Shown here one piece after another: positions 9,043 through 18,301 of a stretch of 64,000 nucleotides of DNA. The stretch is from Caulobacter sp. Root655 (GTDB taxonomy: Bacteria; Pseudomonadota; Alphaproteobacteria; Caulobacterales; Caulobacteraceae), in the NCBI RefSeq assembly GCF_001427665.1, contig NZ_LMHC01000023.1, forward strand, positions 532,024 to 596,023, written 5' to 3'. The notes under the pieces were generated by a model, which saw only the letters and a program-made list of their open reading frames with translations, did not search any database and was not told the origin of the DNA. Within the stretch, counting starts at the first letter, position 1. The number at the start of each line of letters is the position of its first letter. The translations under genes were made by a program, and so were the position numbers.

Positions 9043-10200
9043 CTACCCCTCGATCACGTGCGGCACGAACCGCGCCAGGTTCTTGGTCACCACGCTGTCG
9101 TCCTCGCGGATGCCGATGCCGACCGGTTCGGCCCCGACGATCCAGGCGCCGACCACCGGGCGCTTGCCGTCGAATTCCGGCGGCGGGTGGTAGGCCTGGA
9201 GGATCGCGCCCTCCTGGCCATAGCCCTGGTCGAGCACGGGTTCGTCGCCGCCGACGATCTCGACATTGGCCCCTTCGCGCGAGAACAGCGGCTTGCGCAC
9301 GTACCGCCCGCCGAGGTTCGAGGCGGCGGGGTCGCCCTCGAAATAGGCCTCCAGCAGGTTGGGGTGGCCGGGGTGGCGCTCCCACAGCAGCGGCAGGGCG
9401 CCCTTGTTGGACAGGATCGACTTCCACGCGGGTTCCAGCCAGCGCACCTGGGCGGTCTTCAGGTGGGCGGCATAGGGCTCGCGCAGCATGTGCTCCCACG
9501 GATAGAGCTTGAAGGCCGCCTGCAACACGAAGCCTTCCAGGTCGACGAACTGGCCCTCGGCGTTGACGCCGATGGCGTCCATGGCCACGAACTTCGGCTC
9601 GATGCCGGCCTGGATCGCCAGGTCCTCCAGGAAGCGCACGGTCTGGCGGTCCTCGACAGCCTCGGCGTCGCTGGCGAAGTGGACGAAGCCGCCGGTCGGG
9701 AACAGGGTCTTGAACCGGTCGCGCAGCGCCTCGAACAGGCTATTGAACTGGTCGGCGTTGGCCGGCAGCGTCCCGTTGGCGATCAGTTCTTCCAGCCACA
9801 GCCACTGGAAGGTGGCGGCCTCGAAGACGCTGGTCGGGGTGTCGGCGTTGTATTCGTAGAGCTTGGGCTTGCTGACGCCGTCATAGCCGAAGTCGAAGCG
9901 GCCATAGAGCGACGGCGACTTGGCGCGCCAGGAGGCGGCCACGAAGTCGCGGTGCTCGGCCGGGATCGCCAGCCGGGTCATCAGTTCCTCGCTGGCGACC
10001 ACCTCGTCGACCAGGTCCAGGCACAGGTCATGGAGCTCGGCGGCGGCCGGCTCCAGGTCGTCCTCCACCTGCTTGAGGGTGAAGGCGTAGGCCACGCTCT
10101 CGTCCCAATAGGCCTGGCCCTCGGTGTGGTGGTAGACGAAGCCGACGGCCTCGGCCTTGGCCTTCCAGTCGGGACGGGGCGTCAGCTTGAGGCGGCGCAT
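9043..10200 (-). CDS. Glutathionylspermidine synthase-like ATP-grasp protein (YjfC/YgiC family)
   Basis: A 385-residue member of the family named after the synthetase half of glutathionylspermidine synthase, an ATP-grasp fold that forms amide bonds. Visible signatures are YGRFDFGYDG and KLYEYNADTPTSVFEAATFQWLW (about 100-135), VHFASD, FKLYPWEHMLREPY (about 255), WEPAWKSILSNKGALPLLWERHPGHPNLL-like text (about 275-305) and GGRYVRKPLFSREGANV. It lacks the amidase half, as do YgiC and YjfC, whose real substrates are unknown. The ATG at 10200 has AGAGG nine bases upstream; an in-frame ATG lies nine bases earlier. It is downstream of the PspA-like gene on the same strand, across a large palindrome. 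Confidence 0.9.
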   Translation of the reverse strand: MRRLKLTPRPDWKAKAEAVGFVYHHTEGQAYWDESVAYAFTLKQVEDDLEPAAAELHDLCLDLVDEVVASEELMTRLAIPAEHRDFVAASWRAKSPSLYGRFDFGYDGVSKPKLYEYNADTPTSVFEAATFQWLWLEELIANGTLPANADQFNSLFEALRDRFKTLFPTGGFVHFASDAEAVEDRQTVRFLEDLAIQAGIEPKFVAMDAIGVNAEGQFVDLEGFVLQAAFKLYPWEHMLREPYAAHLKTAQVRWLEPAWKSILSNKGALPLLWERHPGHPNLLEAYFEGDPAASNLGGRYVRKPLFSREGANVEIVGGDEPVLDQGYGQEGAILQAYHPPPEFDGKRPVVGAWIVGAEPVGIGIREDDSVVTKNLARFVPHVIEG

Positions 10201-10290
10201 TGTGGTCATCCTCTGAGTCCATCCGGCCCCTCGGGTCGCGCGAAGTGCGCGCCCAAGCGCCGAGGCAATGGACAGGGAGCAAAGATAGGG

Positions 10291-10435
10291 TGAGCCTTTG
10301 ACCTTCGGGCCGAAATCCTCGTCCTTCGACAAGCTCAGGATGAGGATTTCTACTGAACCGCCGCGAAACTAGCCCTCATCCTGAGCTTGTCGAAGGACGA
10401 GGGCTAGTTTCGCGGCCTCGACCGTCAAAGGCTCA
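10291..10435. repeat. Nested inverted repeat between the PspA-like and ATP-grasp genes
   Basis: Outer arms TGAGCCTTTGAC and GTCAAAGGCTCA (10291-10302, 10424-10435) enclose two copies of a CTCGTCCTTCGACAAGCTCA / TGAGCTTGTCGAAGGACGAG inverted repeat. An inner perfect 17-bp pair runs 10361-10377 and 10399-10415 (CCGCGAAACTAGCCCTC and its complement). The structure could end or weaken transcription between the two genes. Confidence 0.85.
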
Positions 10436-10442
10436 GGACGTC

Positions 10443-11165
10443 CTAAGCCTCGTCAGGCTTCTGCTCGATCTGCAGGGTCGGCTTGGCCGGGGCCAGGCGC
10501 GCCAGGACGTCGTCGGCCGAGGACTGGCCGGGCAGGATGCCGGCCAGGCGCAGCTTCTCGTCCAGGTCGGCGCCGGTGCGGCGGTCTTCCAGTTCACCGG
10601 CCGCCTTGATGCGCTCGCCGCGGATCGCCTGCTTTTCCTTGATGCGAGCCAGGCTGTCGGCGGCCGAGCCCAGCGACGAGCCCGCGCCGGCGCCGCGCGC
10701 GGCGACCGAGGCCTGAGCCTTCTGGACGGACTCGTTGACCTTCACGACGTCGACCTCGCGACGCAGGGTCTCGATGCGGCGGTCGGTGGCGCTGATGGCG
10801 GTGTGCAGCTGGTCTTCGGCGACCCGCATGTCGGCGACCTGCGGCTCCTTCAGGGCGATGTCCGACTCCAGGTCGGCGATGCGCTGGGCCACCTGGCGGG
10901 CCAGGTCCATGTCGCCCTTGGTGACGGCGGCGCGGGCCGAGCCCTCGTACTTGACGACCTGGTCGCGGAAGCTGGCGACTTCCTTTTCCAGGATGCGTCG
11001 GCGGGCCACCAGGCTGGCCATGTCGTCGCGGGCCTTGCCCTGGGCGGTGTCGGCGTCGCGGATTTCCTGGTCGAGGATGCGCAGGGCGTTGGCGTCGACG
11101 ACGGCCGAGGTGGCGTCATGCGCGCCCGCGCGACCCAGGGTGAACAGCTTTTGCCAGATGGACAT
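10443..11165 (-). CDS. PspA/IM30 family protein (YjfJ-like)
   Basis: A 240-residue coiled-coil protein of the PspA/IM30 (ESCRT-III-like) family, which coats and stabilises the inner membrane. Residues ~30-190 are long amphipathic helices with heptad patterns (ALRILDQEIRDADTAQGKAR, VARRRILEKEVASFRDQVV, AQRIADLESDIALKEPQVAD). The N terminus MSIWQKLFTLGRAG is the membrane-binding amphipathic helix typical of YjfJ-type members. The C-terminal tail ends in a variable Pro/Lys region. The gene follows the DUF2170 gene by 25 bases, the same order as yjfI-yjfJ in E. coli. There is no pspF/pspBC nearby, so regulation is not the classical phage-shock type. Confidence 0.92.
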   Translation of the reverse strand: MSIWQKLFTLGRAGAHDATSAVVDANALRILDQEIRDADTAQGKARDDMASLVARRRILEKEVASFRDQVVKYEGSARAAVTKGDMDLARQVAQRIADLESDIALKEPQVADMRVAEDQLHTAISATDRRIETLRREVDVVKVNESVQKAQASVAARGAGAGSSLGSAADSLARIKEKQAIRGERIKAAGELEDRRTGADLDEKLRLAGILPGQSSADDVLARLAPAKPTLQIEQKPDEA

Positions 11166-11190
11166 TGGAAGGCTCCGAAGGGTCGTGGAA

Positions 11191-11619
11191 TCAGGCGGCG
11201 GGGGTGAAGGACGAGCGCAGGTCCGAGGCGGCCTCGATGGCGTTCTCGGCCAGGGCCCGCAGCTCGATCAGAATGTCGTCCAGCGACGAGGTCGTCGCCA
11301 GCTCGCCGAACAGCTCGTAATAGTCGCGGTCGCCGACCGCGCTGATGCCGAAGTTCGACAGCGGCACCAGCTTCTGGGCCTTGAGCAGGAATTCGTTGAA
11401 GGCGTGGCGGTCCTTCTGTTCGTCGACCGGCCACAGCAGCGTCGAGGCGGCGATCTGCTGGTCGCTGACGCTGACATAGATCTCCAGGTCGCCGTGATCG
11501 TGCATGGTGACCAGCAGGATCGGATCGGCGCCCTCGACGACGCGGGCCGTCATGGCGTCGCTGAATCCGTCGCCAAGGGCGGTCTTCAGCGAGCGAACAG
11601 TCCAGGCGGGGGTCGTCAT
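11191..11619 (-). CDS. DUF2170 family protein (YjfI-like)
   Basis: A 142-residue acidic, soluble protein of DUF2170, the family of E. coli YjfI. Recognisable text is WTVRSLKTALGDGF at the N terminus, VSDQQIAASTLLWPV (about 50-64), AFNEFLLKAQKLVPLSNFGI (about 73-92) and YYELFGELATTSSLDDILIEL (about 101-121). It leads the leftward arm, 25 bases before the PspA-like gene, and 172 bases from the divergent DUF2491 gene. No enzymatic motif is visible; partnership with the PspA-like protein is inferred from the conserved neighbourhood. Confidence 0.88.
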   Translation of the reverse strand: MTTPAWTVRSLKTALGDGFSDAMTARVVEGADPILLVTMHDHGDLEIYVSVSDQQIAASTLLWPVDEQKDRHAFNEFLLKAQKLVPLSNFGISAVGDRDYYELFGELATTSSLDDILIELRALAENAIEAASDLRSSFTPAA

Positions 11620-11791
11620 CGGGCGGTGTCTCCAATCGGCGATGAGTGTTTCATACTAGATGGGCGGACGAACGCCAGTCGTCGAGAGCGCAACCTTGCG
11701 TGCTCGCATGACAAGTTGGTAATGGCGCGGCCCCTTTTGCGAAGGCGGCGCGCGTCGTACATGTGGACGAGTTTCGCATTCGGATCGCTTC

Positions 11792-12445
11792 ATGTTCAGC
11801 AAGCTCTTCGGCCGCAAGGACAGCGCGCCCGCCTCGGCCCTGCCGGCGATCCGCAACGTCACCCTGGGCCGCACGGTCTGGCTCGACACGCTGGCCTGGC
11901 GGCGGCTGGGCGACGACCTGAAGTTCGTGCTCGACACCGACACCCTGGAAATCACCGCCCAGGGCTTGGTCGAGCTGCGCGAGGGCGGCTTCGTCCACCG
12001 GTTCTACACCGACGACAACGTGATGTTCCAGGCGGTCTCCGACGACCGCGAGGGCCAGCGGGTCACCGACATCACCGTCTTCATCCCCTGGGACAGCGCC
12101 TATCCGGGCGGCCGGGCCGACGAGGAGGCCTGGGCCAAGCGCCTGCGGGCCCGCACCTTCACCGGTCCCGGCCTGCCGGAATACCGGCGCGACTGGTTCG
12201 GCGACGAGGCCGACAGCCAGGAACCGGTGAGCTTCTGGGAAGACGTCCACGACGACCGCGACGGCATCCCGGATCGGCGGATCTTCCAGACCTGCATGCT
12301 GTTCTCCCGCGATTTGCCGGGCGACGGCCGCGAGCTTCTGCTAGCCATTCAGCAGGAAAACGAGAACGAGGACACGCGCCAGCGCGAGGTCTCGTTCGAG
12401 ATCATGGTCGGCGTGGCGTTGAACGTCGGCGAATTCCGGGCCTAG
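11792..12445 (+). CDS. DUF2491 family protein (YjfK-like)
   Basis: A 217-residue soluble protein of DUF2491, the family of E. coli YjfK. The N terminus MFSKLFGRKDSAPASALP is followed by LGRTVWLDTLAWRRLGDDLKF and a mixed alpha/beta body, with FYTDDNVMFQAVSDD (about 71-85) and the family-typical FMLFSRDLPGD/ELLLAIQQENE-like region (about 170-190, seen as CMLFSRDLPGDGRELLLAIQ). It opens the rightward arm of the divergent cluster and is followed, after a small palindromic repeat, by the DUF350 gene. Function is unknown. Confidence 0.88.
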   Translation: MFSKLFGRKDSAPASALPAIRNVTLGRTVWLDTLAWRRLGDDLKFVLDTDTLEITAQGLVELREGGFVHRFYTDDNVMFQAVSDDREGQRVTDITVFIPWDSAYPGGRADEEAWAKRLRARTFTGPGLPEYRRDWFGDEADSQEPVSFWEDVHDDRDGIPDRRIFQTCMLFSRDLPGDGRELLLAIQQENENEDTRQREVSFEIMVGVALNVGEFRA

Positions 12446-12450
12446 CGCCC

Positions 12451-12501
12451 AAGAGCGTGGCAGCCGAAAGTGTGAGCGGTTTTGGCGCCCGCCACGCTCT
12501 T
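12451..12501. repeat. Short inverted repeat AAGAGCGTGGC...GCCACGCTCTT
   Basis: Eleven-base perfect arms at 12451-12461 and 12491-12501 surround a 29-base centre containing GCCGAAAGTGTGAGCGGTTT. It lies between the DUF2491 and DUF350 genes. It looks like an intergenic repeat unit rather than a strong terminator because no T run follows. Confidence 0.75.
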
Positions 12502-12542
12502 AATGTTTAGTTTGGAGCCTCCGGCTCCAAGGGGGAATGAGA

Positions 12543-12956
12543 ATGAGCGACCTGCACGGATTTGGCGGCAACGCCCTGGCGTTCCTGGTGGCCTTCGTCG
12601 CCGCCGGCCTGTTCACCGTGGCCTTCAAGGTCATCTACCAGTGGGTGACGCCCTATAACGAGGCCAAGCTGATCCGCGAGGGCAATGTCGCCGCGGCCCT
12701 GGCCCTGGGCGGCGCCCTGGTGGGCTACGTGCTGCCCCTGGCCTCGGCCCTGAGCAACACCGTCAGCCTGATCGAGTTCTGCGCCTGGGCCGCTCTGGCC
12801 GGCGTGATCCAGATCGCCGCCTTCACCCTGGTGCGCATCGTGGCGATGAAGGACCTGACCAGCCGGATCGAGAAGGGCGAGATCGCCGCCGGCGTCTATC
12901 TGATGAGCATCTCCCTGGCGGTCGGCCTGCTCAACGCCGCCTGCATGACGGCCTGA
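12543..12956 (+). CDS. DUF350 family membrane protein (YjfL-like)
   Basis: A 137-residue inner-membrane protein with four hydrophobic segments (about 10-33, 50-72, 77-100, 113-135), the hallmark of DUF350/YjfL. It contains the family patterns YQWVTPYNEAKLIREGNVAAALALGGALVGYVLPLASAL-like text, here split over residues 32-70, and ISLAVGLLNAACMTA at the end. The ATG at 12543 is preferred over one six bases upstream because AAGGGGGA then sits at normal ribosome-binding distance. It is 11 bases before the DUF1190 gene. Confidence 0.92.
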   Translation: MSDLHGFGGNALAFLVAFVAAGLFTVAFKVIYQWVTPYNEAKLIREGNVAAALALGGALVGYVLPLASALSNTVSLIEFCAWAALAGVIQIAAFTLVRIVAMKDLTSRIEKGEIAAGVYLMSISLAVGLLNAACMTA

Positions 12957-12967
12957 GGAGAGCGACC

Positions 12968-13594
12968 ATGTCGGACCAACCCTCTCCCCCGCGTCGCCGC
13001 CTGCGCTCCAGCGGCCTGGCCCTGACCAGCCTGATGGCCGGCACGGCGATGTCGATCAGCGCTTGCGACGGCTCGCCCGGCGCCACCCAGTGGGGCGACC
13101 CGCCGGCCGCCGTCTCGAGCGTCGACGCCAAGACCTTCGCCAGCCTGGACGAGTGCAAGAGCTCCGGCGACATGACCGCCGAGCAGTGCGACACCGCCTA
13201 CGCCCAGGCCCAGAAGGACAGCGCCGCCAACGCGCCCAAGTTCGGCGACCAGCAGAGCTGCGAGGAGCGCTACGGCGTCGACCAGTGCGTGCCGCGCAGC
13301 AGCCAGGGCGGCGGCAGCTTCTTCACCCCGCTGCTGACCGGCTTCATCGTCGGCCAGGCGCTCAGCAACATGGGCGGCGGCTATCGCGGCGCGCCGATGT
13401 ACCGCGACCGCGACGGCGGCTACGTCAACGGCTCGGGCTATCCGGTGTCGCGCGACTACGTCACCGGCCGCACGCGGGTGCGCTCCGACAGCTTCGACGC
13501 GCCCGAGGCCCGCGCCCCGGCCCGGGTCCAGAGCCGCAGTTCGGTGATCTCGCGCGGCGGCTTCGGCGGCGGCGGACGGTCGTACGGGGGGTAG
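12968..13594 (+). CDS. DUF1190 family protein (YjfM/YgiB-like), probable lipoprotein
   Basis: A 208-residue exported protein of DUF1190. After a basic N terminus (PPRRRLRSSGLALTSL) a hydrophobic segment ends in SISAC near residue 33, a possible lipobox. The body has paired Cys (ECKSSGDMTAEQC, SCEERYGVDQCV) and a long Gly/Arg/Ser-rich C terminus (GGGYRGAPMYRDRDGGYVNG, ending GGFGGGGRSYGG) typical of YgiB and YjfM. GGAGAGCGACC precedes the ATG. YgiB homologues are regularly encoded beside YgiC-type ATP-grasp proteins, and that pair is also in this cluster. Confidence 0.9.
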   Translation: MSDQPSPPRRRLRSSGLALTSLMAGTAMSISACDGSPGATQWGDPPAAVSSVDAKTFASLDECKSSGDMTAEQCDTAYAQAQKDSAANAPKFGDQQSCEERYGVDQCVPRSSQGGGSFFTPLLTGFIVGQALSNMGGGYRGAPMYRDRDGGYVNGSGYPVSRDYVTGRTRVRSDSFDAPEARAPARVQSRSSVISRGGFGGGGRSYGG

Positions 13595-13837
13595 GCGCCC
13601 GCTACCAACATGATCCGGGATGAGCGGAACCGTGGGGCCTCGAACTGGACTGTAAACCATTGTAAAATTGCCGGGACAACCGGAGCGGTTGGGATTTCGG
13701 CGGGCTAGTCTGCCAGCGCGGACGGCCGCCTTGGTCCATGCCCCCCACGGATTTGGCGTCGCCCCGCCGCGCGTCCCATGCTTCGACTCCATGCGAAGCG
13801 CGGGACGCGCGAGTTCTTCTGGTTTGCAAGTGAGCCC

Positions 13838-14560
13838 ATGAAAGTCGCCCTGCTCGACGACGACGACAGCCACAACGCGCTGGTCGCCGCCCTTCTCGGG
13901 CCGGCGGGTTATGACTGCACCAGTTTCACCCACCCCGAACGCCTGCTGGCCGAGCTGCGCCGCCAGACCTTCGACCTGATCATCCTCGACTGGAACATGC
14001 CCGACCTCAGCGGCATCGAGACCCTGCGCCGGATCGGCGAGGTGCTGACCCCCGCGCCGCCGGTGTTGCTGCTGACCAGCCGCTCGATCGAGGCCGACCT
14101 GGTCGAGGGCCTCAACGCCGGGGCCGACGACTACATCGTCAAGCCGCTGCAGCCCCCGGTGCTGCTGGCCCGGGTCAACGCCCTGGCCCGCCGCGCCTAT
14201 CGCCCGGCCGCCATCCCGCAGGTCGAACAGCACGGGCCCTACCGCCTGGACCCCGGCGCCCAGACGGCCGGCTGGGGCGACCGGGTCGAGGCCCTGACGC
14301 CCAAGGAGTTCCAGCTGGCCTCGCTGCTGTTCAACAACCTGGCCCGGCCGCTGTCGCGCGAGTACCTGCTGCGCCGGGTCTGGGGCCAGCGGCCGGACCT
14401 GGAGACCCGCACCCTGGACGCCCACATCTCGCGCCTGCGATCAAAGCTTCACCTTCGGCCCGCGAACGGCTTTAGACTGACCACGGTCTACGGGTTCGGC
14501 TACCGACTGGAAGCCTGCGAACCCGAAGCCGACACCGCGACCGGAGCCGTTCCCTCATGA
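13838..14560 (+). CDS. OmpR/PhoB-family response regulator
   Basis: A 240-residue two-component response regulator. The receiver domain (1-120) has the acidic pocket DDDD (8-11), the phosphoacceptor D51 in LIILDWNMPD, the Thr/Ser in LLLTS, and the Lys in YIVKPLQPPVLLARV. The winged-helix DNA-binding domain (about 140-232) contains LTPKEFQLASLLFNN and VWGQRPDLETRTLDAHISRLRSKL. The ATG at 13838 begins MKVALLDDDDS; the longer open frame upstream has no family match. It overlaps the FecR gene by four bases (ATGA) and is almost certainly the cognate regulator of the CHASE2 kinase two genes on. Confidence 0.93.
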   Translation: MKVALLDDDDSHNALVAALLGPAGYDCTSFTHPERLLAELRRQTFDLIILDWNMPDLSGIETLRRIGEVLTPAPPVLLLTSRSIEADLVEGLNAGADDYIVKPLQPPVLLARVNALARRAYRPAAIPQVEQHGPYRLDPGAQTAGWGDRVEALTPKEFQLASLLFNNLARPLSREYLLRRVWGQRPDLETRTLDAHISRLRSKLHLRPANGFRLTTVYGFGYRLEACEPEADTATGAVPS

Positions 14561-15939
14561 AGCTTGCCCCTGTGCGGGACCTCGCCGCCGCCGCGGCGTT
14601 GAGCCTCGTTCCTGGCATGGCCCTGGCCGGTCCGCCGACCGCTCCGCCTCCCCCCTCGCCCATCGACGCGCCGATCACCTACGTGGTCCAGCGGGGCGAC
14701 ACCCTCTACGACCTGGCCAAGGCCTATCTGCGCAGCGTCAACGACTACCGCCACGTGCAGCGCGTCAACCGGATCAGCCAGCCCCGCGCGCTGCCGATCG
14801 GCGCGCGCCTGCGCATCGACCCGGCCCTGCTCCGCACCGACCCGCTCGACGCCCGGCTCAGCGCCTTCAGCGGCCGGGTCCAGGTCGAGACCGGCGGCCG
14901 CCTCGCGCCGGCTCGGGTCGGCATGGCGATCCTCGAAGGCCAGCGGCTGATCACCGGCCCCAACGCCTTCGCCACCATCGACATCGCCGACGCCTCGCGG
15001 GTCACCCTGCCCTCCAACACCAGCCTGCGCGTCGTGCGCCTGCGCCAGGTGGTGCTGACCAGCGCCCCGCAGCGGATCTTCCAGCTGGACGAGGGCCGCG
15101 GGACGGTGTCGGCCACCCCGACCACCAACCCCAACGCCCGCTTCGAGGTCCGCACGCCGGTCTCGATCTCGGCCGTGCGCGGCACCGAGTTCCGGGTGCG
15201 CTACGCCCCGGCCCAGCCGGGCCTGCTGGCCCGCGCCCAGACCGAGGTGCTGAAGGGCGCCGTGGCGGTCTATGCGCCCGACGCCAGTTCCGTGGTCCTG
15301 AACACGGCGACGGCCACCCCGGCCGGCTTCGGCGTCACCGCCACCGCCGACGCTGTCAGCGGGCCGACCGCCTTGCTGCCACCGCCCCGCCTGGCGGCGG
15401 GCGACGACCGGCAAAGCGAGCGGATAGTCCGCTTCGCCGCCGAGCCCGTGGCCGGGGCCGCCGCCTACCGGATGCAGCTGTCGCGCGACGCCGGCTTCGT
15501 CGACCTGTTCGCCGAGGCCACGGCGCCCGAGCCGGTCGCGGTGTTCGACGACATGCCGGGCGGCACCTATTTCATCCGCCTGACCGCGCTGGACGGCGGC
15601 GGACTGGAAGGCCTGGGGGCCGACTACAGCTTCGACCGCGACCTGGACACCCTGGAGCCGGGCCCCTCGCCCACGCCCAGCGTCGAAGGCAAGCACCGCT
15701 ACTTCCTGTTCCGCTGGAACGCCGCCGGCGACGGTGTGCGCAGCTTCCGCTTCCAGCTGTTTTCCGGAACCGAGCCGGTCTCGCCGATCGTCGACCAGCC
15801 CGGCCTGACAGACCCACAGCTGACCCTCACCGACCTGCCGCCCGGCGCCTATAGCTGGCGCGTCAGCGCGGTGCGGTTCAAGAAGGGGACCTACACCGAA
15901 CGACTCGGCCCATTGCAGCCATTGCAGATCGGTCGCTAG
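14557..15939 (+). CDS. Exported LysM-FecR domain protein
   Basis: A 460-residue periplasmic protein. A signal peptide (1-24, ending MALAG) is followed by a LysM peptidoglycan-binding motif (about 39-85, YVVQRGDTLYDLAKAYLRS ... LPIGARLRIDP). A FecR-type beta domain follows (about 110-225, with ITGPNAFATIDIADASRVTLPSN-type text and VSISAVRGTEFRVRYA). Two immunoglobulin-like segments follow (about 285-370 and 375-460). It has no membrane anchor of its own. Placed between a response regulator and a CHASE2 kinase and coupled to the former, it probably acts as an extracytoplasmic sensing or anchoring component for the kinase. Confidence 0.88.
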   Translation: MKLAPVRDLAAAAALSLVPGMALAGPPTAPPPPSPIDAPITYVVQRGDTLYDLAKAYLRSVNDYRHVQRVNRISQPRALPIGARLRIDPALLRTDPLDARLSAFSGRVQVETGGRLAPARVGMAILEGQRLITGPNAFATIDIADASRVTLPSNTSLRVVRLRQVVLTSAPQRIFQLDEGRGTVSATPTTNPNARFEVRTPVSISAVRGTEFRVRYAPAQPGLLARAQTEVLKGAVAVYAPDASSVVLNTATATPAGFGVTATADAVSGPTALLPPPRLAAGDDRQSERIVRFAAEPVAGAAAYRMQLSRDAGFVDLFAEATAPEPVAVFDDMPGGTYFIRLTALDGGGLEGLGADYSFDRDLDTLEPGPSPTPSVEGKHRYFLFRWNAAGDGVRSFRFQLFSGTEPVSPIVDQPGLTDPQLTLTDLPPGAYSWRVSAVRFKKGTYTERLGPLQPLQIGR

Positions 15940-15943
15940 AACC

Positions 15944-18301
15944 TTGTTCAGCGCTTTTTCCTCAAGCGAACCGACACCCGCTTCACTCGAAAACGCTTCG
16001 GGCCTGGATCTTCCCTTGCGATTGTTCCGACGCCACCCGCCCCGGTCCACCAAGCGTCGGCTGCTCAGCTGGCTGGTCGTCGCCGCCCTGACCAGCCTGG
16101 CCCTGGCCGCCCTGACGGCCAGCCCGCTGACCACGCGGCTGGACAACATCCTCTATGACCGCCTGCAGCGGGCCTCGGCCCGGCCGGTCGACCCGTCGAT
16201 CCTGATTGTCGGCGTCGACGAGCGCAGCCTGCGCGAACTGGGCGCCTGGCCCTGGTCGCGGGCCAGGCACGCGGCGATGATCGACCGACTGACCCAGGCC
16301 GGCGCCAAGGCCATCGTCTACGACGTGCTGTTCAGCCAACCAGCCCCCGACCCGACCGACGACGCGGCCCTGGCCTCGGCCATCGCCCGCTCGGGCAAGG
16401 TCTACCTGCCACAGTTCCTGGAGTCCGACGGCCAGGACGGCGCCCCACCGACCCTGGTCGGGCCGCTGCCCGAATTGGCCCAGGGCGCGGCCGGCCTTGG
16501 CCTGGCCCACGTGCGGTTCGACGCCGACGGCGTGGTCCGGCGCATGGCCCCGTTCGAGGCGGGTGGCCCGGACCTGGCGCCCGACCTGATGACCGTGGTC
16601 CATCGCGCCACCAAGGCGTTCGGCGCGCCCGACGCAACGCGCGGCTCGGCCCAGACCCTGCTGATCCCCTTCGCCGGACCGCCCGACCGCTATCGCCAGA
16701 TCGCCTTTTCCAGCGTGCTGGCCGGAGAGATCCCGCCCGAGCTGATCGCCGGCCGCACGGTGTTCGTCGGCCTGACCGCGCCGGGCCTGGGTCCCGCCTT
16801 CCCGACCCCGGTCACCCCCGACGCGGCCAGCATGACCGGCGTGCAGCTGCAGGCCAGCGTGCTGGACGGCCTGCGCGGCGGCAAGATGGTCAAGCCAGCC
16901 GGCCTGGTCAGCCGCCTGACCTTCGCGCTCAGCCTGCTGTGGCTGCTGCTGGCCGGCCTGCTGGTGCTGCCGCCGCGCGCCGCCCTGCTGCTGCTGGCCA
17001 GCCTGCTGGCGGTCGCCCTGGGCGTCAGCGCCGCCCTGTTCGGCGTCGCCCACCTGTGGCTGTCGCCGGTGGCGGCGATCCTTGGCCTGGCGGTGGTCTC
17101 GCTGGTTTGGGGCTGGGGCCAGCTGGGCCGGGTCAACGACCTGCTGGGCCATCAGCTGGATCGCCTGCGGTCGGCTGGGCCGGCTTCCTCCGCCCGCGAC
17201 GAAGCCGGCTTCGAGAGCGACGTCGTCGCCCGCCAGGCCTTCAGCCTGGGCGCGGCCATTACCCGGATCGACGACCTGCGGCGGTTCTCGGCCGACGCCC
17301 TGTTTAGCCTGCCCGACGCCACCCTGGTGGCCGACGCCGAGCGCCGGGTGATCGCCGCCAACGCCGCCGCCCGGACCTTGCTGGGCCGCGCGCCCCAGGC
17401 GACGGCCGGCGGGACCCTGGCCTGCGCCCTCAACGCCCTGGAGCCGCTGGGCCGCACCTTCCCGCCGACCTGGCCAACCGAGGCCGACAGCGGCCGGGCC
17501 ATCGACCTGCACCTGGCCGACGGCCGCGCCTACCAGTTGCAGACGGTGTTCCGTCGCGACGAGGCGGGTGGCGACGCCGGCTGGATCCTGCGCCTGGCCG
17601 ACATCACGCCCCTGACCGCCGCCATGCGCCAGCGCGAGCAGGCCCTGCAACTGCTGACCCACGACATGCGCTCGCCGCAGACCTCGATCCTGGCCCTGCT
17701 GGCCACCACGCCGGACCTGCCGGCCGACGTCTCCGAGCGCCTGGCCGCCTGCGCCCGCCGCACCCTGGCCCTGGCCGACGGCTTCGTGCAGCTGGCCCGG
17801 GCCGAGGTCACCCAGACGATCATGGAGCCGCTCGACGTCTGCGACGTGGCCGTCGAGGCGGTGGACGAGTTGTGGCCGCAATGCCGCCAGCGCCGGATCG
17901 AGATCCGCCAGGAGGGCGGTGACGCGCCGATGATGGTGCTGGGCGACCGCGGCGTGCTGGCCCGGGCCCTGGTCAACCTGATCGGCAACGCGGTGAAGTA
18001 CAGCCCCGACGGGGCCGGCATCACCGTGCGCGCCGCCGCGGTGCTGGACGACGGCCGCACCTTCATCGACCTCGCCGTCGTCGACCAGGGCCCGGGCCTG
18101 ACGCCCGAGGAGGCCGCCCTGGCCTTCCGTCCGTTCCAGCGCTTCGACCGGCCGGGCGCCAGCGCCATCGACGGCGCCGGCCTGGGCCTGGCCTTCGTCC
18201 AGGCCGCCGCCGCGCGCCACGGCGGCGCGGTGACCTGCACCAGCACGCCGGGACAAGGGGCGACGTTCACGCTGAGACTGCCGGAGGTGGCGGCGGGATA
18301 G
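15944..18301 (+). CDS. CHASE2-domain sensor histidine kinase
   Basis: A membrane histidine kinase of up to 785 residues. One transmembrane segment (about 45-65) precedes a periplasmic CHASE2 domain (ILIVGVDERSLRELGAWPWSRARHA near residue 85 is the signature). Three clustered transmembrane segments follow (about 325-395), then a PAS domain (about 450-555), the phosphoacceptor H573 in LLTHDMRSPQTS, and the ATPase domain with NLIGNAVKYSPDG, VDQGPGL and GAGLGLAFVQAA. The start is uncertain: the frame opens at a TTG four bases after the FecR stop, but its first ~18 codons are a dispersed repeat; TTG codons at 16016 and 16022 are alternatives. The last gene of a three-gene signalling operon. Confidence 0.9.
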   Translation: MFSAFSSSEPTPASLENASGLDLPLRLFRRHPPRSTKRRLLSWLVVAALTSLALAALTASPLTTRLDNILYDRLQRASARPVDPSILIVGVDERSLRELGAWPWSRARHAAMIDRLTQAGAKAIVYDVLFSQPAPDPTDDAALASAIARSGKVYLPQFLESDGQDGAPPTLVGPLPELAQGAAGLGLAHVRFDADGVVRRMAPFEAGGPDLAPDLMTVVHRATKAFGAPDATRGSAQTLLIPFAGPPDRYRQIAFSSVLAGEIPPELIAGRTVFVGLTAPGLGPAFPTPVTPDAASMTGVQLQASVLDGLRGGKMVKPAGLVSRLTFALSLLWLLLAGLLVLPPRAALLLLASLLAVALGVSAALFGVAHLWLSPVAAILGLAVVSLVWGWGQLGRVNDLLGHQLDRLRSAGPASSARDEAGFESDVVARQAFSLGAAITRIDDLRRFSADALFSLPDATLVADAERRVIAANAAARTLLGRAPQATAGGTLACALNALEPLGRTFPPTWPTEADSGRAIDLHLADGRAYQLQTVFRRDEAGGDAGWILRLADITPLTAAMRQREQALQLLTHDMRSPQTSILALLATTPDLPADVSERLAACARRTLALADGFVQLARAEVTQTIMEPLDVCDVAVEAVDELWPQCRQRRIEIRQEGGDAPMMVLGDRGVLARALVNLIGNAVKYSPDGAGITVRAAAVLDDGRTFIDLAVVDQGPGLTPEEAALAFRPFQRFDRPGASAIDGAGLGLAFVQAAAARHGGAVTCTSTPGQGATFTLRLPEVAAG
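15951..15996. repeat. Alphaproteobacterial-type intergenic repeat (family B), copy 1
   Basis: This stretch reads CGCTTTTTCCTCAAGCGAAC ... CGCTTCACTCGAAAACGC and matches the element at 46361-46406 (CGCATTTTCTTCACGCGAAC ... CACTTCGCTCGAAAATGC) at about 80% of positions. Its ends are complementary (GCG..TTTTC / GAAAACGC). It overlaps the presumed 5' end of the CHASE2 kinase gene. Confidence 0.7.

Follow-up and report, generated by a model that had tools for sequence, protein, structure and literature searches.

The genes yjfI, yjfJ, yjfK, yjfL, yjfM and yjfC of Escherichia coli K-12 are co-directional in RefSeq and encode, respectively, a DUF2170 protein, a member of the PspA/IM30 family, a DUF2491 protein, a DUF350 membrane protein, a DUF1190 lipoprotein and a stand-alone ATP-grasp ligase. 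Ravi 2024 (PMC11237479) already presents this six-family set as the third group of PspA neighbourhoods, together with a potassium channel, and a passage of PMC12492005 describes yjfIJKL as up-regulated in heat-evolved E. coli. The subject here is the version of this set found in Caulobacter sp. Root655, at positions 9043-13594 of a 64,000-nucleotide stretch (contig NZ_LMHC01000023.1, positions 532,024 to 596,023, forward strand) that is referred to as a whole as the window, and especially the relationship between its ligase and the C-terminal tail of its DUF1190 protein.

Glutathionylspermidine synthase (GspS) joins the glycine carboxylate of glutathione to spermidine. LysW, an amino-group carrier protein, is a cytoplasmic protein that ends in Glu (C-terminal EDWGE) and on whose C-terminus an ATP-grasp enzyme acts. 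The stand-alone enzymes of E. coli, YjfC and YgiC, are both named "peptide--spermidine ligase" in RefSeq; a table in PMC12506659, citing Sui 2012, gives YgiC as being without glutathionylspermidine synthase activity, and the accessible passages of the open-licence literature name no protein substrate for either enzyme. Finally, in eukaryotes spermidine is conjugated by E1/E2 enzymes to the C-terminal Gly-Gly of SUMO and ubiquitin, according to PMC12270671, which gives +127.15 Da as the mass shift for spermidine.

The ligase and the DUF1190 tail

The two genes of most concern, and the two elements of the tail, are placed in the window as follows.

9043..10200, minus strand: stand-alone ATP-grasp ligase of the YjfC/YgiC type, 385 residues; PF03738 (GSP_synth), 477.5 bits
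12968..13594, plus strand: DUF1190 lipoprotein of the YjfM/YgiB type; PF06693, 130.7 bits (cut-off 22)
13553..13567, plus strand: tail anchor RGGFG, DUF1190 residues 196-200; from a pattern match (G000:C23:545576) and alignments
13586..13591, plus strand: C-terminal Gly-Gly, DUF1190 residues 207-208; proposed polyamine ligation site

Judged by homology, the ATP-grasp protein of the window is a ligase of the YjfC/YgiC type. It is stand-alone and homologous over its full length to YjfC (47% identity) and YgiC (50%), its relatives in the PDB are 7uk6/7uk7 (YjfC) and 7uk8/7uka (YgiC), and PF03738 is its sole Pfam family, with no amidase domain found. Compared with bifunctional glutathionylspermidine synthetase/amidase (GspS/A), it scores 142.6 bits on the NCBIfam model PRK10507, whose cut-off is 882. 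Alignment with relatives puts its start most likely at the ATG at 10200 or 10209 (385-388 residues) and not at the TTG at 10332 of the listed open reading frame (ORF), and its sequence carries no sign of export. What is proposed here in addition to the two E. coli enzymes is that the tail of the neighbouring protein is the substrate. The preliminary description of the locus had an amide-bond-forming enzyme modifying some partner; homology supports the enzyme, and the partner can be sharpened to what is likely the C-terminal tail of DUF1190.

The DUF1190 protein reads as a lipoprotein, with a lipobox-like ISAC after a hydrophobic segment, followed by Asp and then a conserved Cys; by a crude rule, a lipobox is present in 99/115 DUF1190 proteins. 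YjfM and YgiB are only 24-25% identical to it, and common to all three are an RGG[FY]G motif near the end and a Gly-Gly stop, which in the window protein takes the form RSYGG. Two alignments, one of 15 and one of 13 DUF1190 proteins (mean column identity 30% and 33%), show no variation at Arg 196, Gly 198, Gly 200 or Gly 207, nor at several Cys. A set of 111 distinct DUF1190 tails comprises 102 that finish in Gly and 9 that finish in Ser, with Gly as the penultimate residue in 106; the spacing from anchor to end varies from 7 to 37 residues. The AlphaFold model (mean predicted local distance difference test score, pLDDT, 69) has a domain at 51-180 of fair to good quality, with residues 181-208 below 50; a beta-grasp fold was sought ahead of the Gly-Gly, and the model gave no PDB match with E <= 0.001. 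Taken together, these features are those of a linear motif in which the very end of the chain is important.

None of the other five families has a C-terminus that is Gly-rich in the DUF1190 manner. The earlier suggestion of a modified "DUF1190 or PspA tail" is narrowed by this comparison to DUF1190, because the C-terminus of PspA is not conserved; being variable, the PspA tail is not supported as a substrate. In DUF350 proteins of the window and its relatives, a conserved NAA[CS]MT is followed by one variable residue, and this C-terminus is a weaker candidate since the last position varies. Within the genome of the window the DNA pattern of the anchor is not enriched (45 places, against 50 for the reversed control), and there are 13 other in-frame matches with a stop no more than 60 codons away (two of them being a single site), none of which ends in Gly-Gly.

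Association across genomes

The association between tail and ligase was scored by a rule that requires the anchor within the last 70 residues either of a DUF1190-family ORF in the fetched stretch, at whatever distance, or of a neighbouring ORF on the same strand whose last residue is Gly, Ser or Glu. Stretches covered about 5 kb on each side of the ligase, some being cut by contig ends; loci and genomes are given L and G numbers. In a first phylum sample GSP_synth was found in 38/200 genomes, its 43 matches comprising 34 stand-alone ligases, 8 long proteins and 1 fragment. A tail protein stands at 33 of the 34 stand-alone ligases; at the exception, L223, one lies 2.4 kb upstream. The 33 tails end in Gly-Gly (24), Gly-Ser (5), Ser-Ser (2), Ala-Ser (1) and Gly-Glu (1), where shuffling the residues after the anchor gives an expectation of 3.4 Gly-Gly ends. 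This sample is not independent, as the motif was first seen there and the anchor expression was widened on it.

A held-out set was therefore drawn, with the rule fixed ahead of retrieving its loci from a larger sample, in which GSP_synth occurs in 91/398 genomes and 54 loci were new. Dropped from it were G017, G022, G027 and G042, already in the order set, and G380, below the cut-off; the low-scoring L367 and L368 (382 and 394 residues) were kept as stand-alone. The tail is present at 42/50 stand-alone ligases, with 37 ends in Gly-Gly, 2 in Ser-Ser and 1 each in Gly-Ser, Ala-Thr and Gly-Thr. The eight misses comprise two DUF1190 proteins lacking the anchor expression and six loci without a candidate; by eye L340, L344, L347, L364 and L366 are tail-like, and L343, L363 and L367 are not. 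One genome, G432, has two stand-alone ligase genes, with a tailed DUF1190 downstream of L368 and no carrier (as the tail-bearing proteins are called here) found at L363.

The long GspS/A-type proteins provide the control. They share PF03738 with the window ligase, and differ in having a CHAP domain, as GspS/A enzymes should (8/8 scanned, those of the first sample; the window ligase has none), and in the absence of a tail-bearing neighbour under the rule (0/8 in the first sample and 0/4 held out, together 0/12). A looser rule gave nominal matches at 2/8 of the long controls (L250, L251), both of which vanish when the same strand is required. As a background, the rule fires on 6 of 685 ORFs upstream of other large ORFs, taken stop to stop and not as annotated genes, and 3 of these 6 are true carriers. 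One genome with a DUF1190 protein and no GSP_synth match, G234, has a DUF1190 without the anchor that ends EGS.

A third collection consists of the best 80 of 592 ligase matches, and is biased towards the query. A carrier is found at 78 of these 80 loci, the contigs of the other two ending too early, and 73 of the 78 carriers end in Gly-Gly (8.7 expected). 

Among the carriers of all these loci, ten that had not been assigned to DUF1190 were scanned: for 7 there was no match to that family at E <= 1, and for the other 3 only one below the cut-off. They are short, have a hydrophobic segment or a lipobox-like stretch, and bear the same kind of tail. Five carriers from outside Pfam's DUF1190 (L222, L223, L224, L233, L161) share a second short motif, FGKR, close to the N-terminus and ahead of the hydrophobic segment. 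At the Rhodobacteraceae-like loci L160, L180, L194, L197, L198 and L237 the DUF1190 gene lies downstream of the ligase and not upstream, with the tail kept.

That tail and ligase are functionally coupled is, given this association, highly probable. The cluster itself is of a known kind; a search of the open-licence PMC literature found no description of the DUF1190/YgiB tail, and the tail-ligase association with the substrate prediction derived from it is likely to be the new content.

Proposed mechanism

The reading that we favour, with moderate confidence, is that the ligase attaches a polyamine to the terminal carboxylate of the DUF1190 tail. The chain end is proposed as the acceptor because the ligase is of a stand-alone kind that carries the label peptide--spermidine ligase and does not behave like Gsp, and because its neighbour ends in Gly-Gly after a fixed motif that resembles a recognition site. 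The enzyme would use ATP to activate the carboxylate of the neighbouring lipoprotein, which would then be joined to an amine of spermidine or a relative. The enzyme would recognise RGGFG in the disordered tail, and ligation would take place at the small residue that closes the chain, usually that of a Gly-Gly. The reaction would take place in the cytoplasm before export, such that a polyamine-capped tail would appear in the periplasm. Within such a scheme DUF350 may be a frequent membrane partner, with PspA, DUF2170 and DUF2491 a further module that may have been added in some lineages. The data show directly the gene set, its arrangement, the conservation of the tail and the association of tail with ligase; the reaction, where and when it would occur, and what the other four proteins do are inferences from these.

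The origin of the polyamine can be addressed in part from the genome itself. S-adenosylmethionine decarboxylase has no match there and was rejected as a source. A carboxyspermidine route is suggested, because a saccharopine-dehydrogenase-family gene stands beside an nspC-like gene (396.2 bits, below the cut-off of 409.05), the donor amine being uncertain.

The SUMO and ubiquitin conjugates of PMC12270671 give the proposed product a chemical precedent, since both would bear spermidine in amide linkage on the final Gly of a protein ending Gly-Gly; the difference is that the eukaryotic conjugates depend on E1/E2 enzymes, whereas here the catalyst would be an ATP-grasp ligase. The proposal resembles the LysW system in that an ATP-grasp enzyme would act on the C-terminus of a dedicated protein. 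However, LysW is cytoplasmic with its EDWGE end, whereas DUF1190 is a lipoprotein ending in Gly, in the window RSYGG.

Whether these observations amount to a dedicated bacterial protein-polyaminylation system is evenly balanced. In such a system an ATP-grasp ligase would recognise a C-terminal tag (RGGFG, a variable linker and usually Gly-Gly), carried by lipoproteins and other membrane-anchored proteins, and would cap it with polyamine prior to export. If true, this would be a one-enzyme counterpart of ubiquitin-type conjugation at a C-terminal Gly-Gly, and would add to protein modifications a polyamine amide at the C-terminus of an exported protein. The system would exist twice in E. coli K-12 (YgiB with YgiC, YjfM with YjfC), and YgiC and YjfC would have as substrates the products of their neighbouring genes, in the most thoroughly studied of bacteria. 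The PspA-linked yjf cluster would gain a testable chemical function, and the tail could be used for finding further substrates. DUF1190 is in any event a strong and directly testable candidate for the protein substrate of the neighbouring ligase.

Evidence against ligation and alternative explanations

A number of observations weigh against ligation at the tail. Fundamental among them is location, in that the carriers are exported (lipobox in 99/115 by the crude rule) and an ATP-grasp enzyme needs cytoplasmic ATP, so that ligation must precede export, an order of events that would be the simplest way out of the problem. The terminal Gly is not absolute, and some lineages have tails ending in Ser. 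When the ligases of the pooled earlier loci are grouped at 60% identity, with the long control L250 excluded, 16 of the 26 clusters end in Gly-Gly, 9 in Ser and 1 in Glu. L343, L363 and L367 of the held-out set, and L039, have no tail neighbour that was found, and the DUF1190 of L168 ends KGG without an anchor. In the window the ligase and DUF1190 belong to opposite arms. Closely related enterobacteria contribute many of the loci. The carriers that Pfam does not place in DUF1190 may be distant members of that family and not a separate one, and the open-licence PMC literature yielded no account of DUF1190 in modified form.

Of the two parts of the tail the anchor is the more constant (25/26 clusters, against 16/26 for the Gly-Gly end), and this leaves room for a docking role. 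The tail would then be a docking or regulatory motif through which DUF1190 holds or controls a ligase that modifies another peptide, and its predicted disorder would suit this as well. Docking alone, though, leaves unexplained the nearly invariant extreme C-terminus, which is Gly in 102/111 tails at a distance of 7 to 37 residues past the anchor, and we regard this explanation as unlikely.

A different possibility retains the chemistry and changes its outcome: the polyamine would reside on the DUF1190 tail only temporarily, to be handed on or released in the periplasm in the manner of a LysW-like carrier. The tail evidence bears on this as it does on permanent ligation, and the occurrence of the membrane protein DUF350 in 24/34 stand-alone loci of the first phylum sample is in keeping with it; we consider it decidedly unlikely.

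That the locus is an envelope stress machine like that of the phage shock proteins, in which the product of the ligase would be a small polyamine-peptide metabolite and no protein would be modified, agrees with the grouping with PspA in Ravi 2024 and with the heat-related up-regulation of yjfIJKL in the passage of PMC12492005, but is very unlikely, as PspA, DUF2170 and DUF2491 are absent near 25/34 stand-alone ligases of the first sample while the tail protein is at 33/34, and the glutathionylspermidine-type relatives are without a tail protein (0/12).

Gene set and layout

The proposed ligation of polyamine to the DUF1190 tail concerns two members of a larger set. All six families match in Pfam far above their cut-offs between 9043 and 13594, in two arms of three genes each separated by 172 bp, with the ligase, PspA and DUF2170 leftward and DUF2491, DUF350 and DUF1190 rightward. 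The coordinates, strands and family matches agree with those given in the preliminary description. The remaining genes are as follows.

10443..11165, minus strand: PspA/IM30 family, YjfJ type; PF04012 (PspA_IM30), 173.2 bits
11191..11619, minus strand: DUF2170, YjfI/BacA type; PF09938, 151.6 bits
11792..12445, plus strand: DUF2491, YjfK type, with a beta-rich model; PF10679, 183.4 bits; AlphaFold mean pLDDT 85.2
12537..12956, plus strand: DUF350 membrane protein, YjfL type; PF03994, 122.2 bits

The set has all six families in one neighbourhood, like E. coli yjfIJKLMC and the third group of Ravi 2024, and differs from the single co-directional operon of E. coli in being split into divergent arms, the ligase sharing that of PspA. 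It also differs from the group in PMC11237479 in that the potassium-channel gene listed there is not among the window's six; no such gene lies between 9043 and 13594, the flanks not having been scanned for one. The view that all six belong to a single functional set has support, and it is already published in that source.

The divergent arrangement had been described as a rearrangement, which is not borne out. DUF2491 was found in 19/150 genomes sampled within the order, and of the 18 neighbourhoods fetched in addition to the window, 16 match it exactly, with the six genes present in the identical arrangement and the ligase on the side of PspA; DUF2491 and PspA are on opposite strands in all 18. 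The exceptions are L038 (16.6 kb fetched), without DUF2170 and the ligase, and L039, without a recognisable DUF1190. The laboratory strain of Caulobacter vibrioides, a control in these searches, gives matches to GSP_synth, DUF1190, DUF2170 and DUF2491. A local rearrangement is rejected, as the layout is lineage-wide: the divergent split is a repeated form of the set.

Further afield, among the best 80 of the 592 loci, the window-type layout is found in 18 (Caulobacter, Phenylobacterium, Brevundimonas, Sphingomonas), a second divergent layout, in which the ligase shares an arm with DUF1190, in 9, and the co-directional layout in 10, from gammaproteobacteria. Eight of the loci with the second layout are named, for example Rhizobium, Agrobacterium, Aurantimonas and Jiella, and one is from an unclassified proteobacterial metagenome-assembled genome (L149). 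DUF1190 and the ligase occur alone in 34 and with DUF350 in 4. The six families do, as these loci and those of the order demonstrate, co-occur in other genomes. To regard all six as one machine is nevertheless too broad, since in the first phylum sample 25 of the 34 stand-alone ligases have neither PspA, DUF2170 nor DUF2491 in the fetched stretch.

For two of the other proteins there is structural information. DUF2170 is CesT/Tir-like according to PMC11237479 and PMC10948618, and the latter describes a crystal structure of the DUF2170 protein BacA that resembles type III secretion chaperones; the window protein scores 108.9 bits with the NCBIfam BacA model, below the cut-off of 300. The DUF2491 model gave no PDB match with E <= 0.001 in a fold search. 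A second look at its structure matches has rows for several triphosphate-tunnel-like proteins, among them YgiF, which is the best (Z 5.9 over 89 residues), Vtc4 and Cet1, all below the trusted level.

Intergenic elements and flanking genes

Two elements lie between the genes of the set.

10320..10404, no strand: palindrome separating the genes for PspA and the ligase, a dispersed repeat with genome-wide copies
11650..11690, no strand: conserved block between the divergent arms, from an alignment of intergenic regions

The palindrome, already noted in the preliminary description, is real and near-perfect, with CTCATCCTGAGCTTGTCGAAGG-like arms, but it is a dispersed genome-wide repeat: there are 38 strand-matches in the genome, its own copy counted, and in many cases a single site contributes a match on each strand. 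It is not specific to the cluster and was rejected as a part of it. The block at 11650..11690 is kept in 7/9 aligned intergenic regions, L022 and L027 being those without it, and is a candidate promoter or operator. A sigma-70 consensus scan gave no site, and the promoter/terminator scan was uninformative. Rfam gave no match in the window at gathering scores, and a permissive search gave sub-threshold matches only.

After the DUF1190 gene, at 13778-18301, come a response regulator, a 460-residue ORF with a start that by eye is LysM-like, and a large ORF resembling a CHASE2-type sensor kinase. A close homologue of the response regulator directly follows DUF1190 in two of the 18 relatives' loci, L024 and L026. 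ARAGORN calls a tRNA-Gln at 16458-16538, inside and on the same strand as the ORF at 15944-18301, which is probably a false positive.

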